Assembly (NCBI RefSeq): GCF_033441515.1
Contig: NZ_JAWQJT010000002.1
Location: 992,001-1,056,000 of the forward strand
Reading direction: 5' to 3'
Length of the DNA stretch: 64,000 bases
Source of the DNA: Amycolatopsis solani
Lineage (GTDB): Bacteria > Actinomycetota > Actinomycetes > Mycobacteriales > Pseudonocardiaceae
In this document: positions 13,690 through 64,000 of the stretch, piece by piece
Numbering within the stretch: the stretch's first letter is position 1
Layout of the letters: each line of letters starts with the position of its first letter
The notes under the pieces: generated by a model
Told to the model about the DNA's origin: nothing
What the model saw: only the letters and a program-made list of their open reading frames with translations
The model's database searches: none
Position numbers and translations under genes: made by a program

Positions 13690-16600
13690 ATGCCCGACGC
13701 CGCCTTCTTCTCCTCCTTCGAAACCGGTGATCCGCAGCCCGCGGATCCCACCTCGGTCGTGGACAGCGGACCGGACCGCTCGCCCACGGCCAAGACCGGC
13801 GTCGGCTTCAGCGGGGCGCGGGCCCTGCGCTACGGCTCGCGGCCGCGCACGGTCCTGTTCGAACTCGACCTCCCCGTCACCGCGCGCACCGAGCTGTCCT
13901 ATGTGGTCTTCCCCGCCGCCGACGGGGAGATCCCCGCCTACCACGCCACCCGGGTCAGCCTCGACGTCGAATTCGCCGACGGGACGAGCGCCGGGTTCGA
14001 GCCGGTCGACGACAAGACGCTCTGGGTGGACCAGTGGAACCCGGTGCGCCGGCCGCTGGGCGCGTTCGCCGGGCGCCGGATCAGCCGGATCGTGCTGCGC
14101 ACCGGCGCGCCGGACACCGACATCACCGGGTGGGTCGACGACGTCCGCATCGCCGAGCGGGCCCAGCCGCCGCGGGAGCCGGTCGACTACGTCCGCACCA
14201 CGCGGGGCACGCACTCCAGCGGCGACTTCTCCCGCGGCAACAACTTCCCCGCCACCGCGGTGCCGCACGGCTTCAACTTCTGGACCCCGGTCACCGACGC
14301 CGGCGTCACCAACTGGATCTACTCCTACCACCGCCACAACGACGAGCGGAACCGCCCGGCGCTGCAGGCGCTCGCCCTGAGCCACCAGCCGAGCCCGTGG
14401 ATGGGCGACCGCCACACCTTCCACGTCATGCCCGGCACCGGGCCGGTCGAACGCCACCGCCGCAAGCGCGCGCTGCCCTTCTCCCACGACGACGAAACCG
14501 ACTCCCCGCACCACTACGGCGTCCGGTTCGCCAACGGGATGACCGCCGACCTCGCGCCGACGTCGCACGCGGCGATCATGCGGTTCACCTTCCCCGACAA
14601 GCACGGCTGGCTGCTGTTCGACAACGTCGGCAACCGCGGCCGGCTGCGGCTCGACGCCGACACCGGCGTGATCAGCGGGTACACCCGGGTCCGCAGCCGC
14701 CTGTCGGCCGGGGCGCGCCGGATGTTCGTCTACGGCGTGACCGACGCCCCCGCCACCCGGGGCGCGAAAGTCCGCGTGCCGCCGTGGCGGCGCGTCTCGG
14801 GCTACTTCGAGTTCGACGGCCCCGACGTCACGCTGCGGATCGCGACGTCGCTGATCAGCCTCGCCCAGGCCAAGCGCAACCTCGAACTCGAGATCCCGGC
14901 CGGGACGACGTTCGACGAGGTGAAGGCGGAGGCCCGGCGGCTGTGGCAGGAGCAGCTCGGCCGGATCGAGGTCGAGGGCGCGACCGAGGACCAGGCCACG
15001 ACGCTGTACTCCAACTTCTACCGGCTGCTGCTGTACCCGAACGTCGCGCACGAGAACACGCCCCAGGGGATCCGGCACGCCAGCCCCGTCGTGCGCCGGT
15101 ACTGGCCGAGCACCCGGCGCCGCAGCGGCGCGAAGGTCGTCGACGGCGAGCTGTACGTCAACAACGGCTTCTGGGACACCTACCGCACCACCTGGCCGGC
15201 GTACGCGCTGTTCACCCCGGAGCGCTGCGGCCGGATGATCGACGGGTTCGTGCAGCAGTACCGCGAAGGCGGCTGGATCTCCCGCTGGTCCTCCCCCGGC
15301 TACGCCGACCTGATGACCGGGACCAGCTCGGACGTCGCGTTCGCCGACGCCTACCTCAAGGGCGTCCGCGACTTCGACGTCGAAGCCGCCTACGACGCCG
15401 GGCTCAAGAACGCCACCGTCACCCCGCCGCACCGCGCGGTCGGCCGCAAAGGCCTCGAGGAGTCGATCTTCCTCGGCTGGACCCCGGCCTCGGTCCACGA
15501 AGGACTGTCGTGGGCCCTGGAAGGCTGCATCAACGACTTCGGCCTCGCCAACCTCTCCGACGCACTTTCACGTGAAAGTGCGGGCGCGCGGGCCCGCCGC
15601 TACGCCGACTACGCGGCCTACTTCCGCGAGCGCGCGAAGCACTACGTCCACCACTTCGACCCCGAGATCGGGTTCTTCCAGGGCCGCCACCGCGACGGCC
15701 GCCGCAAGTTCGGGCCGGCCGGCTACGACCCGGCGGCCTGGGGCGGCGACTTCGTCGAGACCAACGCCTGGAACACCGCCTTCACCGCACCCCACGACGG
15801 CCCGGGCCTCGCCGCCCTCCACGGCGGCCACGCCGGGCTCGAGGCCAAGCTGGACACGTTCTTCGCCACCCCGGAAACCGGACGGCGGCCCGGCGCCTAC
15901 GGCGGCCTGATCCACGAGATGACCGAGGCCCGCGACGTCCGCATGGGCCAGTACGGGCACTCCAACCAGCCCTCGCACCACATCCCCTACGTCTACAACC
16001 TCGCCGGCGCGCCCGCGAAAGCCCAGCGCGTCGTGCGCGAAGTGCTGCGGCGGCTCTATCTCGGCAGCGCGATCGGCCAGGGCTACCCCGGCGACGAGGA
16101 CAACGGCGAGATGTCCGCGTGGTACCTCTTCAGCGCGCTCGGCTTCTACCCCCTCGCCGTCGGCAGCCCCCGCTACGCCATCGGGTCACCGCTGTTCGAG
16201 AAGGCCACCGTCCACCTGGGCGAAGGCAAGAAGCTCGTCGTCCACGCACCCGGCAACACCGACGAGACCGTCTACGTCCGCGGCCTCACCGTCGACGGCG
16301 AGCCGCACGAAGCCACCTCGATCGCCCACGCCACCCTGGCCGGCGGCGCCGAACTCGTCTTCGACCTGACGACCGAACCCACCGGCTGGGGCACCCCGCC
16401 GCCCCCCGCCGAGCACCCGGACCCGGTCACCGACCTCACCGGCACCGCCACCAGCGAAGAAGCCAAGAACCTCGGCGCGCTCTTCGACGACACCACCCGC
16501 CCCCAGGTCACCTTCCGCAGTGCCACCCCGTCGATCGAGTTCACCGTCACCGGCGAACCCCGCGCGGTCACGATGTACACGCTCACCTCCGGCACCCGCG

Positions 16601-58123: not shown

Positions 58124-60163
58124 TCAGGCCAGCGCGTGCCGCCCGTACGCGCGCGACTCCGCGCTCTGGTCGAGCAGCCGGGCGGCCACCCGGCCGATCG
58201 CCGCGTCGAGTTGGGCGCGGTCGCCGGTGCCCCAGTCGCCGAGGCGGTCGGCCAGCCAGCCGTGCCAGGCACCGACCACCTTGGCGAACTCCGCGCGGCC
58301 CGCGCCGGTGAGCTCCCAGCCGTCGCGCGCGTACCGCAGGTGGCCCGTCAGTTCCAGGCGGTTGAACGCCGGTTCGAGCACCGGCGCCGGGACGCCGAAG
58401 TGCTCGCCGATCGCCTTGAGCGTCGCCGGCTCACCCCGGCGTTCGCGCAGGTGGACCTGCAGCAGGCACCAGATGCCGCCTTCGTCGAGGTCGCTGCCCG
58501 CTCGCTCGACGATCGCCGGGGCGACCTTGCGGCGCTCGCGGAAGAAGAGGGTCGCGACCGCGCGTTCGAGCTCGCGGTCGTCCGTGCGGGCCTCCGGCAT
58601 CGCGAAGCCGTCGCCGAGGTCCGGGGCCGCCGCGCGGGCGGTGTCGCGCAACGGCACCTCCTTGAGGAAGAACGCCAGCACGAAGGCGACCAGGCCGACC
58701 GGCGCGGCGGCGAGGAACACGACGTGCAGGGAATCGCTGTAGGCCTGGATCACCGGCGCGGACACCGAGTCCGGCAGCGCGTGCAACGCCGTCGGCACCT
58801 GGATCGCGCGCGGGTCCACCCCCGGCGGCAGCGGGTGCGCGGCCACCGCCGCGGCCAGGTTCGGGGTCAGCTGGTTGGCGTACACCGTGCCGAAGATCGC
58901 CGCGCCGAACGAGCTGCCGATCGAGCGCAGGAACGTCACGCCCGAGGTGGCGACGCCGAGGTCGGCGTAGTCGACGGTGTTCTGCACGGCGATGGTCAGC
59001 ACCTGCATGCCGAGCCCGATGCCGAGACCGAGCACCGCCATGTACGCCGACGCTTCCCAGAAGCCGGTGTCGGTGTCGAGCCGGGACAGCAGGTAGAGCC
59101 CGACGGTCATGCCCGCGGCGCCGACCAGCGGGAAGATCTTGTAGCGGCCGGTCCGGCTGACCGCGTTGCCGGCGGTGATCGACGCGACGAGCAGCGCGAG
59201 CACCATCGGCAGCAACCGCACCCCGGACGAGGTCGCGGAGGTGCCCTGGACGTACTGCATGTACGTCGGCAGGTAGGACAGCGCGCCGAGCATCGCGAAG
59301 CCGACGACGAAGCTCATGATCCCGGCGACGGTGAAGACCGGGTTGCGGAACAGCCGCATCGGCAGCATCGGTTCCTTCGCCCGCAGTTCGACGAAGACGA
59401 ACGCGGCGAGCAGCACCACCGAGCCGATCGCCATCCCGATGATCGTCGGCGAATCCCACGCGTACTGCGTGCCGCCCCAGCTCGTCACCAGGGTCAGGCC
59501 GGTCGCGGCCAGGCCGATCAGCAGGATGCCGAGGTAGTCGATGACCGGTTTGACCACGGCGCGGGCGTTCGGCATCGCCGAGGACGCCACGACCAGCACC
59601 ACGACGACCAGCGGGATGTTGACGTAGAACGCCCAGCGCCACGAGAGGTGGTCGACGAAGAAGCCGCCGAGCATCGGGCCGGCGACGGTGACCACGCCGA
59701 ACACCGAGCCGAGCACGCCCTGGTACTTGCCGCGCTCGCGCAGCGGGACGACGTCGGCGATGAGCGCGGTCGAGGTGACCATCAGCCCGCCGCCGCCGAG
59801 GCCCTGCACCGCGCGCCAGACGATCAGCCACACCATGCTGTCGGCGAACCCGGCGAAGAACGAGCCGATGCCGAACACGACCACGGACAGCTGGAACATC
59901 AGCTTGCGGCCGAAGAGGTCGCCGAGCTTGCCGACGACGACGGTCATGATGGTTTCGGCGAGCAGGTAGGACGTGACGACCCAGGACAGGTGCCCGGCGC
60001 CGCCGAGGTCGCCGACGATGGTGGGCAGCGCGGTCCCGACGATGGTCTGGTCCAGCGCGGCCAGCAGCATCCCGAGCAGCACGGCGCCGAAGACGGCGTT
60101 GACCCGGCTCTTGCTCAGCGGGGCGGGCCCCGGCTCGTGCGCGACCTCCGCGGTGGCCGTCAT
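58124..60163 (-). CDS. DHA2-family MFS exporter with fused C-terminal winged-helix domain
   Basis: 679 aa. Fourteen-span drug:H+ antiporter: motif C-like TIVGTALPTIVGDL, motif A GKLGDLFGRKLMF, antiporter motif VFGVVTVAGPMLGG. Membrane part ends at about 520. The remaining about 150 residues are soluble, with a MarR/PadR-like winged helix (GGIWCLLQVHLRERRGEPATLKAIGEHFGV then LELTGHLRYARDGWELTGAGRAEF). A transporter joined to a DNA-binding-type fold is unusual. Last gene of the run coming from the PKS end, so it may export the product. ATG 60163 with GAGGAG upstream. Confidence 0.92.
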   Translation of the reverse strand: MTATAEVAHEPGPAPLSKSRVNAVFGAVLLGMLLAALDQTIVGTALPTIVGDLGGAGHLSWVVTSYLLAETIMTVVVGKLGDLFGRKLMFQLSVVVFGIGSFFAGFADSMVWLIVWRAVQGLGGGGLMVTSTALIADVVPLRERGKYQGVLGSVFGVVTVAGPMLGGFFVDHLSWRWAFYVNIPLVVVVLVVASSAMPNARAVVKPVIDYLGILLIGLAATGLTLVTSWGGTQYAWDSPTIIGMAIGSVVLLAAFVFVELRAKEPMLPMRLFRNPVFTVAGIMSFVVGFAMLGALSYLPTYMQYVQGTSATSSGVRLLPMVLALLVASITAGNAVSRTGRYKIFPLVGAAGMTVGLYLLSRLDTDTGFWEASAYMAVLGLGIGLGMQVLTIAVQNTVDYADLGVATSGVTFLRSIGSSFGAAIFGTVYANQLTPNLAAAVAAHPLPPGVDPRAIQVPTALHALPDSVSAPVIQAYSDSLHVVFLAAAPVGLVAFVLAFFLKEVPLRDTARAAAPDLGDGFAMPEARTDDRELERAVATLFFRERRKVAPAIVERAGSDLDEGGIWCLLQVHLRERRGEPATLKAIGEHFGVPAPVLEPAFNRLELTGHLRYARDGWELTGAGRAEFAKVVGAWHGWLADRLGDWGTGDRAQLDAAIGRVAARLLDQSAESRAYGRHALA

Positions 60164-60709: not shown

Positions 60710-61876
60710 TCATGTTTTGGGCAGCAGGCTCTCCAGCGCGAGCTGCTCCAGGTGTCCCGCGGCCGCGGCGCTGCCGCCCGCGGCGTGGAACGACGCGGCC
60801 ACGGTCTCGGCCGCGCGGCGGTAGGACGGCTCGGTCAGCACCTCTTCGAGCGCCGCCACGATCCGCTCGCGGCTCGCGCGGCCGAAGCGCAGCCGGATGC
60901 CCGCGCCCGCGGCGACCACCTGGGCCGCCACGATCGGCTGGTCGTCGCGGATCGGGGCGACCACCAGCGGCAAGCCGTGCCACAGCGCCTCGCACACGGT
61001 GTTGTGGCCCGCGTGGCAGAGCACCGCGTCCACCCGCGCGAGCACCGGCAGCTGCGGGACCGAGGGCCGCACCAGGACGTTGGGCGGGACCGCGCCGAGC
61101 ACGCCGCCCGGGTCGGCGATCACCGCGCGGGCGGGCAGGCCGGCGAACGCGTCCGCCGTCGCCGCCAAGAATTCGGCGCCCGCGCCGGTGTTCGCCGTGC
61201 CCAGCGAAACGAGCACGGCCGGGCGCGGCGGGTCGAGCCACTCCCACGGGAAGTCGCTCGGGGACGGCCGGGTGCCGAGCGCCGGCCCGACCAGGCGGAC
61301 CCGCGGCGGCAGCGCGGCCGCGCCGAGCAGTTCGCGGGTGGTGAAGGCGAGGACGCCGTGCGGGGAGAACCGGGGGTCGGCCGTGCCACGGCCGCCGGCG
61401 ATCCGGGCACGCAGGCCGTCGAGCAGCCCGGCCACCCAGTCCGCCACCTTCGGCATCCCGGCCAGGGGATCGACCAGCTCGGCCGACGTCGTCGCCGAAG
61501 TGACCCACGGGAGGCCGTGCGCTTCGGCGAGCAGCCCGCCGGCCAGTGCCTGCTGGTCGGCGACCACGACGTGCGGCTCGAACGCGCCGAGGGCGGTGGC
61601 CACCCCGGGCGCCATCGCGTCGGCCAGCGGGACGAGGAAGTCCTGCCAGAGGTACCGCAGCGCGGCGGGTCCCTTGAGCTCCGGCGGACGGGCGGGGACC
61701 GCGGGTGGCAAGGCGCACGAGAACACGAGCGCGTCCGGGCCGGCCAGCTGCCACAGCAGCTCGTCGTGGCCCGCCCAGGCGACTTCGTGGCCGCGCGCGG
61801 TGAGCTCGGCCGCGACGCCCGCCGCCGGGTTGACGTGCCCGATCAGCGGCGGGACGACGAACAGGAACCGGGCCAC
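60710..61876 (-). CDS. MGT-type glycosyltransferase (GT1 family)
   Basis: 388 aa, GT-B fold. N-terminal FVVPPLIGHVNPAAGVAAELTARGHEV is the classic macrolide/UDP-glycosyltransferase start. The donor-binding C-terminal half holds VLVSLGTANTGA and HAGHNTVCEALWHGLPLVVAPIRDDQP, the sugar-nucleotide signature. It would attach a sugar to a small-molecule acceptor, presumably the cluster product. GTG 61876 overlaps the hydrolase stop (TAGTG). Confidence 0.93.
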   Translation of the reverse strand: MARFLFVVPPLIGHVNPAAGVAAELTARGHEVAWAGHDELLWQLAGPDALVFSCALPPAVPARPPELKGPAALRYLWQDFLVPLADAMAPGVATALGAFEPHVVVADQQALAGGLLAEAHGLPWVTSATTSAELVDPLAGMPKVADWVAGLLDGLRARIAGGRGTADPRFSPHGVLAFTTRELLGAAALPPRVRLVGPALGTRPSPSDFPWEWLDPPRPAVLVSLGTANTGAGAEFLAATADAFAGLPARAVIADPGGVLGAVPPNVLVRPSVPQLPVLARVDAVLCHAGHNTVCEALWHGLPLVVAPIRDDQPIVAAQVVAAGAGIRLRFGRASRERIVAALEEVLTEPSYRRAAETVAASFHAAGGSAAAAGHLEQLALESLLPKT

Positions 61877-62682
61877 TACCGCACCCGGGCCGGGGCGCGC
61901 GAGGTGTCCCGGACCCAGTCGAAGACCAGGTCGATCACCTCGGCCGTCCGCTCCACCAGCACCGAATGACCCTGGTCGGGCAGCACCACGCACCGGCAGC
62001 GCGCCAGGTTCGCCTCGAAGTCCGGGACCTGCGCGGCGAGCCCGGAGTCGCCGCCGAAGATCGCGAACACCGGGCAGCGCACGGCCGAGAGGTCCGCCGC
62101 GATGGTCGCGCTGCGCGGGATGTCCCCGGCGATCGTCGTGGTCTCCAGGATCCGGTGCGCGGCCTTGGACAGCCGCGCGGTGTGCGCGCCGTGGTTGTCC
62201 GCGATCCAGCCGATGACCTCGTCGATCGCCAGCCGGGTCTTGGCGTCGGCGAGGCCGTCGGCCATGTGCTGCGTCCACGCCTCAGTGGGCGGTTCGCCCT
62301 CGATCGCGACGACGCTCGCCACCCGGTCCGGCCGGGCGGCCGCCAGGCCGAACGCCACCGACGCGCCGAACGAGTTGCCGACCACGTGCACCGGCCGTGT
62401 CGCACCGCTGGCGTCCAGGACCGCGACGAGGTCGTCGACGAACTCCTCCAGCCGGTACCCCGACGCGGGGCGCGTGGTGCGGCCGTGCCCGCGCAGGTCG
62501 TACATCAGCACGTCGAGCCCGCGCGCGGCCAGCGCCGGGCCGAGCGTGAAGTAGTAGCTGGCCAGGCTGTCGGTGAGCAGCCCGTGCACGCACACCACCA
62601 GCGGCGCGTCCCCGTCGAGCGGCACGTCGGGCGCGAGCCGCTGGACGTGCACGTCCAGCTCGCCCGCGCGGATCCGGCTCAC
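61876..62682 (-). CDS. Alpha/beta hydrolase, possible thioesterase/product-release enzyme
   Basis: 268 aa. CVHGLLTDSLASYY, nucleophile elbow GNSFGA (S104), histidine in LPDQGHSVLV, acid in FGGDSGLA. Encoded between a discrete ACP and a glycosyltransferase with overlapping start and stop codons on both sides, so it may hydrolyse the ACP-bound chain. GTG 62682. Serine nucleophile, unlike the aspartate hydrolase at 32130. Confidence 0.87.
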   Translation of the reverse strand: MSRIRAGELDVHVQRLAPDVPLDGDAPLVVCVHGLLTDSLASYYFTLGPALAARGLDVLMYDLRGHGRTTRPASGYRLEEFVDDLVAVLDASGATRPVHVVGNSFGASVAFGLAAARPDRVASVVAIEGEPPTEAWTQHMADGLADAKTRLAIDEVIGWIADNHGAHTARLSKAAHRILETTTIAGDIPRSATIAADLSAVRCPVFAIFGGDSGLAAQVPDFEANLARCRCVVLPDQGHSVLVERTAEVIDLVFDWVRDTSRAPARVR

Positions 62683-62984
62683 GCGGTGGCCCGCAGCGAG
62701 GCGACGGTGTAGCGGACGAGCTCGCCGACGGTCAGCGCGATGATCTCGTCCAGGTCGCGCTCGGCGATGAAGGTGGCGAAGTTGACGCGGTCGCCGTAGT
62801 GCTCGCGCAGCTGCCCGGACAGCGCCACCAGATCGACGCTCTCGAGCTCGAGGTCGTCGTGGAACGTCGTGTCCATGGTGATCTCGGCGTCGTCCAAGCC
62901 GTAATCCTCCAGCAGCTCCCGCAGCATCCCCGCCAGCTGCGCGAGGACGGTCCCCTCGTCCGTGGCCGTGGTCTCGACGCTCAT
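62679..62984 (-). CDS. Discrete acyl carrier protein
   Basis: 101 aa, acidic, with phosphopantetheine attachment S49 in DLELESVDLV and flanking helices (GMLRELLEDYGLDDAEI before). The attachment site reads ESVD rather than the common DSLD. It overlaps the PKS gene (ATGA) and the hydrolase (GTGA), indicating tight coupling. It should be activated by the PPTase domain next door and carry the growing or final chain. Confidence 0.92.
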   Translation of the reverse strand: MSVETTATDEGTVLAQLAGMLRELLEDYGLDDAEITMDTTFHDDLELESVDLVALSGQLREHYGDRVNFATFIAERDLDEIIALTVGELVRYTVASLRATA

Positions 62985-64000
62985 CCGGCGGTCTCCTTCG
63001 TTTCTTCGGTCCAGGCGACGACGTAGCGGCGCGGCGGCTGCACGACGTCGGCGCAGCGGACGAGGTGGTCCCGCCCGGCGGCGCGGACGGTGAGGTCCGC
63101 GGGAGCGGCCGCGACGACCTCGAAGTCGCGCGGTTCGCCGCGCAGGCCGGTGCCGAGCAGTTTCGCGACGGCTTCCTTCGCGGTCCAGAACCGCGCGAAC
63201 CACAGTTCCGGATCGCCGGGCAGGCCCGCGAACAGGGCTTGCTCGGCCGCACCCAGCGCGGCGTCCACAGTGGACTCGCGGCGCGCCCCGACCTCTTCGA
63301 CGTCGATGCCGCACGGCCAGGGCCGGGCGATCGCCACGCCCGCCTCGGCCCGGTGCGCCAGCGAGATCGTCAGCGGCGGCAGTTCCCGGCCGTAGGCACC
63401 GGTCACGAACGGGCGCCCGCCGGCGTCGTTCCCGACGCGCAGCTCGGCCGGGAACATCTCGGGCTCGCCGCGGGCCCAGAGGTACTGGCGGACGGCGTCC
63501 TTCGCGGCGATGCGGCCGAGCAGCCACTGGCGCCGCCCGCGCGGCGGCCGGTGTTCGTAGGCGTCGCGTTCGGCGCCGGCGAGGTAGTTGCGCATGATCA
63601 GCTCGCGGGTGGCCAGGTCCGGCCACTGCTCGTGCACCAGCGCCCAGCCGCCCGGCTGCTCGACCGACAACGTCGAGCGCTCGGGTGTCCGGTCGGCCTG
63701 GCGGATGTGCGGGGTGCTGTCGAAGCGACGGTCGCGCCAGCCGGTGAACTCCGCCCACACCTGTCCCCGGTGGACGAGCTGCATGTCGGCGTCGAGGAAT
63801 TCGCCGGTCAGCCCGGTGATCTTGACCAGGCACTCGAGGCGCTCCCCCGGCGCCGGGTGCGGGCCGTGGAACCGGATTTCCCGGACCGCCACCGGGAAGA
63901 CGGTGGTGCGTTCGGCCAGCCGGGACATGATCCAGTAGCCGAGCACCTGGCCGACGTTGTCGAGCAGCGCGCCGGGCGCGTCCGGCGTGGTCAGCACCGC
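62981..64000 (-). CDS. C-terminus of a multidomain polyketide synthase: dehydratase half plus integrated 4'-phosphopantetheinyl transferase
   Basis: Only the last 339 codons are in the window; no start codon is chosen because similarity continues to the right edge. Residues 1-100 resemble the second hot-dog of a PKS dehydratase (LLDNVGQVLGYW, VREIRFHGPHPAPGERLECLVKI). Residues about 150-300 are an Sfp-type PPTase with GIDVEEVGAR and FWTAKEAVAKLLGTGLR. DH followed by a built-in PPTase at the C-terminus is the layout of enediyne-type and PUFA-like iterative synthases. Product unknown from this fragment. Confidence 0.85.
   Translation of the reverse strand, partial: AVLTTPDAPGALLDNVGQVLGYWIMSRLAERTTVFPVAVREIRFHGPHPAPGERLECLVKITGLTGEFLDADMQLVHRGQVWAEFTGWRDRRFDSTPHIRQADRTPERSTLSVEQPGGWALVHEQWPDLATRELIMRNYLAGAERDAYEHRPPRGRRQWLLGRIAAKDAVRQYLWARGEPEMFPAELRVGNDAGGRPFVTGAYGRELPPLTISLAHRAEAGVAIARPWPCGIDVEEVGARRESTVDAALGAAEQALFAGLPGDPELWFARFWTAKEAVAKLLGTGLRGEPRDFEVVAAAPADLTVRAAGRDHLVRCADVVQPPRRYVVAWTEETKETAG

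Follow-up and report, generated by a model that had tools for sequence, protein, structure and literature searches.

The nearest described relatives of the operon analysed here are the 'secondary lipid synthases' of the Shulse and Allen scheme (PMC3098273). In the available part of that work, Type M synthases are reported from Frankia (all three finished genomes), Actinosynnema, Renibacterium and S. avermitilis, with the product listed as uncharacterised, and Beijerinckia indica ATCC 9039 is listed under Type P, whose products include the alkyl chains of phenolic lipids, such as C22. The accessible text of PMC3848822 describes a type I polyketide synthase (PKS) that is conserved in every Frankia strain examined there, with a duplicate in ACN14a and in EuI1c. 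The operon in question belongs to Amycolatopsis solani; its 3' end lies in a stretch of 64,000 nucleotides (hereafter the window) of the 10.28-Mb genome, contig C2:992001-1056000. It consists of five genes in the order synthase genes A and B, a discrete acyl carrier protein (ACP), an alpha/beta hydrolase and a family 1 (GT1) glycosyltransferase (GT). The synthase is of an already known kind: by sequence, its core matches Type P and the operon very probably represents Type M. Neither the ACP-hydrolase-GT tail nor the way in which its ACP and GT behave as a portable cassette was found described in the literature searched. The operon proved to be real and well conserved, as a preliminary description of the window had rightly sensed, and the balance of evidence favors the production of a glycosylated long-chain acyl lipid, whose sugar would be added on the ACP before release by the hydrolase.

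Extension of the DNA to the right of the window edge demonstrated that the synthase is made of two proteins. Protein A (2248 amino acids, equivalent to window positions 67285-74031) has the Pfam domain order NMO (a PfaD-like enoyl reductase, ER), ketosynthase (KS), acyltransferase (AT), ACP, ACP and ketoreductase (KR), which is the PfaA-like KS-AT-ACPn-KR plus ER arrangement of the secondary lipid synthases. Protein B has its own KS and AT, followed by a dehydratase (DH) of the PS-DH type and a phosphopantetheinyl transferase (PPTase). TIGR02813 (PfaA) was the best NCBIfam match for both proteins, in each case below the cut-off (for A, 894.5 bits against the curated value of 1010.1). The genes are chained via four start/stop overlaps: GTGA between A and B, located in the DNA beyond the window edge, ATGA between B and the ACP, GTGA between the ACP and the hydrolase, and TAGTG, with a single shared base, between the hydrolase and the GT (sequence inspected, alternative starts tried). 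The preliminary description had recognised the overlapping junctions of the four window genes and interpreted them as the edge of an iterative PKS cluster; both points hold, the extension having revealed two KS-AT pairs, ER, KR, DH and tandem ACPs. It was also right about the DH-PPTase end of the synthase, but not about a single synthase gene.

The phylogeny of the KS domains was inferred from a quick tree of 57 rows with SH-aLRT support only and with long branches flagged, from which two KS rows of one locus (L089) were dropped. The KS of A formed a single clade (20 rows, support 98), as did the KS of B (19 rows, support 100). The former grouped with Type P, one Rhodobacteraceae row and 6 of the 7 KS1 rows resembling polyunsaturated fatty acid (PUFA) synthases at an SH-aLRT of 91, i.e. 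below the 95 mark; the PUFA-like labels were assigned here, and several of these records are unannotated. The upstream KS and AT domains expected for such a cluster were present, and the KS fell into its own clade beside the Type P and PUFA-type KSs instead of a common characterised one, in a tree built without enediyne and heterocyst glycolipid (Hgl) KSs.

A scan of named genomes with a DH-PPTase alignment yielded 301 relatives, of which the best 80 were retained (the named loci). The ACP, hydrolase and GT follow the synthase in this order and on the same strand in all 80, with median gaps of 54, 17.5 and 24 bases and one gap of 1.5 kb, a conservation that is biased upward because of the choice of the best 80 out of 301. 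Draws at the phylum and class level served as a less biased check, the fetched loci still being chosen among strong matches. At the phylum level, 9 of 396 genomes (own included) matched above 400 bits; the eight loci together with a paralogue from the own genome contained the ACP and hydrolase in 9/9 and the GT in 8/9 cases, with DH-PPTase identities of 39-58%. At the class level, 42 of 296 genomes (own included) matched at 1e-30, and in all 12 loci chosen from ten of them A, the ACP, the hydrolase and the GT stood in the expected order, the DH-PPTase being found by tblastn in 11 (missed in L197). A further draw of 60 relatives gave 22 places outside the own genome; 20 were fetched and 18 had the full five-gene order, the exceptions being a remnant (L044) and a locus without GT (L045, the same place as L158 of the phylum draw). 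The single-sequence search used with the relatives undercounts: genome G015 scored none, yet carries a divergent operon. Alignments A1-A4 were made with hand-picked subsets.

The affiliation with Type M was deduced from the PPTase and from the host distribution. The PPTase motif P1b' (hShxH) was present in 79 of the 80 named loci, preceded within 30 residues by P1a (x(G/D)xP, loose pattern) in 78 of the 79, while P1b occurred in none and P0 in one. The presence of P1b' without P1b places the operon in the Types M-T half of the scheme, as given in the available part of PMC3098273. The operon was matched in 32 of the 35 genomes of family f104, very probably the Frankiaceae; those without a match were G841, G948 (63% complete) and G703 (100% complete). 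Three of the f104 genomes, which we take to be Frankia CcI3, ACN14a and EuI1c, contained one, two and two copies, respectively. These numbers agree with the Frankia reports in the accessible parts of PMC3848822 and PMC3098273, which makes the Type M assignment very probable.

A profile search with the discrete ACP led to copies of the tail without the synthase. Nine of the 15 loci fetched adjoin A/B (one of them, L191, lies on a short contig that holds B alone); three (L181, L182 and L186) have an ACP-hydrolase-GT-methyltransferase module in a stretch that gave no match to A/B; L180 has only the ACP and hydrolase, L190 an ACP-GT pair beside an ABC match, and L185 an ACP-GT pair next to another PKS. 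In L185, L193 and L194, i.e. in all three fetched genomes of one genus, the ACP and GT are fused in one frame through a Pro/Ala-rich linker with no stop. These fusions adjoin a different small PKS. The pairing was further followed in ten whole genomes, picked as known holders of the ACP or the operon and paired by eye from two tables. The GT matches at 1e-40 (23 rows, corresponding to 22 genes, since one was split in two rows) were accompanied by a discrete ACP no more than 1.3 kb away in 22 of 22 cases, against a total of 24 ACP matches. No other observation argues as strongly for joint action of the GT and the ACP.

The catalytic residues were counted over 111 loci, taking from each locus its best match and using only matches that covered the site in question; several contigs are included twice, from the relatives draw and the named scan (e.g., L036 and L059), and KS matches below 50% identity were omitted as cross-hits. 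The KS of A retained its Cys in 91/91 and both His in 92/92 matches, and the KS of B its Cys in 102/102 and both His in 101/101 (matches of at least 50% identity), indicating that the latter is not a chain-length factor (CLF). The AT Ser was found in 104/104 matches in A and in 103/104 in B (one gap), the KR Tyr in 102/102, the DH Asp in 111/111, the PPTase Glu in 108/108 and the Ser of the discrete ACP in 110/110. The hydrolase His was present in 110/110 matches, with Ser as the nucleophile in 108 and Cys in 2 of the 110. His14 of the GT, presumably the N-terminal catalytic His, was kept in 108/108. For the second tandem ACP, 8 of the 61 matches lacked the Ser, though the alignment of the repeats is uncertain there. 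The invariance or near invariance of the checked sites, combined with a gene order kept at about 40% protein identity, means that the operon is more than a chance assembly. The two Cys nucleophiles (GNCFG) belong to the hydrolase of Amycolatopsis xylanica, L036 and L059 being the same place.

The preliminary description had assumed that the synthase activates itself through its PPTase, which is plausible, but the domain is not essential to the family: Pfam ACPS was not matched in 9 of 10 paralogue B C-termini, hand-picked mostly for looking short (L043, L157, L178, L179, L184, L187, L188 and L189, also L183), and here the PPTase is presumably needed in trans. The C-terminus of L183 was covered by BLAST at full length at 41% and may be diverged rather than lost, while short C-terminal remnants are kept in genomes G466 and G534. 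L157 represents a second, divergent operon copy in the own genome (contig C1:3098000-3117900), in which B stops before the C-terminal half of the PPTase, just 36 bases from the ACP match. In L162 (2023-12090), A and B are fused into a single protein of 3355 amino acids with one KS, while L161 has an extra alpha/beta hydrolase gene (14722-15462) between the ACP and the hydrolase. In the remnant L044 (G002:C334:27600-47500), B breaks off in the DH region with a GT fragment directly after it, and no match was obtained there for the ACP, the hydrolase or most of A.

The proposed pathway would start with A and B acting as a two-protein iterative fatty-acid/polyketide synthase that builds the acyl chain with its ER, KR and DH and its two KS-AT pairs. 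The C-terminal PPTase of B would activate the discrete ACP as well as the tandem ACPs of A. The second AT, located in B, may play a part analogous to that of PfaB (a terminal acyltransferase according to the available part of PMC12895367) and shift the finished chain from the ACPs of A to the discrete one. The GT would then place a sugar, probably glucose from UDP-glucose, on a chain hydroxyl while the chain is bound to the ACP, and the hydrolase would free the product as a glyco-acid or as an ester or lactone. Attachment of the sugar on the carrier is suggested by the close co-occurrence of the ACP and GT. A carboxyl or ester head is expected, since none of the five operon proteins showed a thioester reductase in Pfam. 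For the chain length, C22-26 can be guessed from Type P, as given in the available part of PMC3098273.

Fold alignments were made with 49 of 63 hydrolase rows and 49 of 65 GT rows, each plus the window sequence, after exclusion of loci with less than 90% coverage, with stops or nearly identical. The hydrolase model (pLDDT 93.3) was closest to solved esterases, lactonases and C-C hydrolases; the protein is a probable release enzyme. Solved structures near the GT model (pLDDT 91.5) included YojK, YjiC, UGT109A1, Kcn28, OleD and 2iya, which we take to be OleI. UDP-glucose is a likely donor because YojK, YjiC and OleI, which presumably use it, are among these structures and because the operon has no deoxysugar genes.

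Several observations weigh against such a pathway. GT1 enzymes usually act on free aglycones, and of 104 matches to the GT, 101 keep the conserved C-terminal His291, which is replaced in the other 3. The generic fold of the hydrolase points to no release chemistry; moreover, neither the three fusion loci nor L190 contain this enzyme, so that it is not a constant partner. Some relatives (L162, L163, L183 and L201) lack the second KS, one locus (in G049) has the ACP and hydrolase with no GT within the stretch, and 2 of the 24 ACP genes in the ten genomes (in G466 and G534) have no GT nearby.

The most serious alternative, which we regard as unlikely on present evidence, is the reverse order: the same synthase makes a hydroxy-fatty acid that the hydrolase frees first, the GT glycosylates the free molecule, and the discrete ACP is an extra carrier or loading partner. 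This is the usual order for natural-product GT1 enzymes, it fits the position of the GT as the last of the five genes, and the solved GTs nearby act on small free acceptors. It does not explain why every strong GT match in the ten genomes adjoins an ACP, why ACP-GT fusions exist without a hydrolase, or why ACP-hydrolase-GT modules occur without an adjacent synthase. Much less probable is a role of the GT in self-resistance by inactivating an antibiotic polyketide, as OleI does: OleI (if 2iya) and OleD are among the near structures and macrolide-inactivating NCBIfam models also score the GT, far below the cut-off, but the synthase family makes fatty chains and the GT is strictly paired with the ACP. 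The chance that the synthase is a polyene or enediyne-type iterative PKS, with the GT decorating a conjugated product, is marginally smaller still: its C-terminal DH followed by PPTase resembles enediyne PKSs, but the synthase is split over two proteins, with two KS-AT pairs and an ER, and neither the operon genes nor the eight upstream open reading frames (ORFs) scanned included a gene recognised as an enediyne partner. The preliminary description had already set the locus apart from the classical enediyne cassette and left the choice between a glycolipid and a polyene; the former is favored, because the relatives are fatty-acyl synthases (TIGR02813 as the top match, below its cut-off) and because of the full reducing set. 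The least probable option is a heterocyst-glycolipid-like route with reduction of the chain to a long-chain alcohol or diol before glycosylation, which has an analogous logic of a PUFA-type synthase plus a GT (HglT attaches glucose according to the available part of PMC11804610), but would need a thioester reductase, whose place in the five operon proteins is taken by the hydrolase, and a KS-CLF pair, which the operon does not have.

Glycosylation on the carrier, predicted by the one-to-one ACP-GT pairing in a tail that itself predicts a glycolipid, may be taken a step further in a tentative proposal, for which the odds are somewhat below even: the discrete ACP and this GT1 subfamily would form a portable on-carrier glycosylation cassette, with the hydrolase releasing the product and, in the boldest form, cyclodimerising two glyco-acyl chains into a macrocycle of the fattiviracin/cycloviracin type, and the same operon would be responsible for a Frankia glycolipid, namely the one listed as undetermined for strain CpI1 in the available part of PMC4365757, which cites a vesicle-lipid paper of 1989. 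The operon is spread over the phylum, nearly throughout f104, and no product has been assigned to it in the literature searched; if the proposal is true, it would offer a gene handle on the secondary lipids of Type M and possibly on macrocyclic glycolipids with antiviral activity.

The features of the window are collected in the table. The Pfam matches over the cut-off among the window gene products were PS-DH, ACPS, PP-binding, Abhydrolase_1, UDPGT and EryCIII-like_C, the ACP query being short of its first 8 and the GT query of its first 5 residues.

Table. Genes and domains of the operon 3' end in the window (positions of the whole stretch)
Feature	Position	Strand	Basis and remarks
Synthase gene B, 3' part (KS-AT-DH-PPTase)	62981..64000	-	Pfam, extension past the edge; whole gene equivalent to window 62981-67288, start at 67288
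PF14765 dehydratase (PS-DH) in B	63719-64111	-	Pfam; runs past the window edge
PF01648 PPTase (ACPS) in B	63017-63316	-	Pfam
Discrete acyl carrier protein, 101 aa	62679..62984	-	PF00550; ELESVD phosphopantetheine site; start 62984 in the ATGA overlap
Alpha/beta hydrolase, 268 aa	61876..62682	-	PF00561/PF12697; GNSFG nucleophile; start 62682
GT1 (macrolide-type) glycosyltransferase, 388 aa	60710..61876	-	PF00201/PF06722; TIGR01426 MGT below cut-off; start 61876, end 60710

Three of the eight ORFs scanned upstream of A matched Pfam (a PAS/HTH regulator, a glutaminase and an amino-acid permease). Past the GT, at window positions 58124-60163 and on the operon strand, lies a gene that by appearance, without a family scan, encodes an exporter of the major facilitator superfamily (MFS); a same-strand MFS gene near the operon was seen in 12 of the 80 named loci, in Amycolatopsis only. 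An ABC transporter (named by appearance) directly follows the GT in 20 of the 80 named loci and a methyltransferase (named by appearance and from the annotation of a plasmid relative) in another 20; of the 72 named loci in which over 1.5 kb of DNA follows the GT, 32 had neither. A distance-limited count gave 18 and 19 loci, respectively, missing L082 and L089 (slight overlap with the GT) and L099 (1.5-kb gap). A GNAT gene was near the operon in 10 of the 80. The plasmid relative is a Streptomyces record annotated, in a row, with a type I PKS, a beta-ketoacyl synthase, an acyl carrier protein, an alpha/beta hydrolase, a glycosyltransferase and a class I SAM-dependent methyltransferase.

Compared to the known systems, the operon shares with Type M the actinobacterial host and a PPTase with the P1b' motif, while the ACP-hydrolase-GT tail, the ACP-GT coupling and a glycosylated product go unmentioned in the available part of PMC3098273. 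With Type P (Ars; Azotobacter, Beijerinckia) it has in common, in B. indica ATCC 9039, the ER-KS-AT-ACP2-KR protein A and a DH-PPTase partner, the KS being 52-53% identical in Beijerinckia and Methylosinus; in contrast, the partner protein B of Amycolatopsis has an additional KS-AT, and the ACP, hydrolase and GT stand where Type P has type III PKS-like genes, none of which was detected among the operon genes or the eight upstream ORFs scanned. The PfaABCDE PUFA synthases and PUFA-NRPS hybrids (accessible part of PMC13291983) resemble it in the tandem ACPs, the PfaD-like ER and the grouping of the A KS, but the operon has no KS-CLF pair, a single DH instead of two, and a PPTase almost always without P0 and P1b. 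Judged by its architecture, it is not an enediyne cassette, with two polypeptides, an ER and a second KS-AT instead of a single KS-AT-ACP-KR-DH-PPTase polypeptide, and it differs from the heterocyst glycolipid synthases in the absence of a thioester reductase from its five proteins. Its GT conforms to the GT1 family by the GT-B fold, seen in the fold matches, and the N-terminal His. As for the product, the available part of PMC4365757 describes the fattiviracins, cycloviracins and glucolipsins as macrocycles of glucosylated hydroxy-fatty acids, made by Streptomyces, Kibdelosporangium and Nocardia, with chains of C19 to C28 in its table (other figures in its text, up to C33) and with O-methylated sugars in the cycloviracins; no gene cluster for any of the three was found in the literature searched. 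The product of the operon perhaps resembles the fattiviracin/cycloviracin lipids, a link made by biosynthetic logic: these lipids, as described there, combine long hydroxy-fatty acids with glucose, the O-methyl sugars of cycloviracin would fit the accessory methyltransferase of the operon loci, and the operon supplies the functions required for such a pathway.

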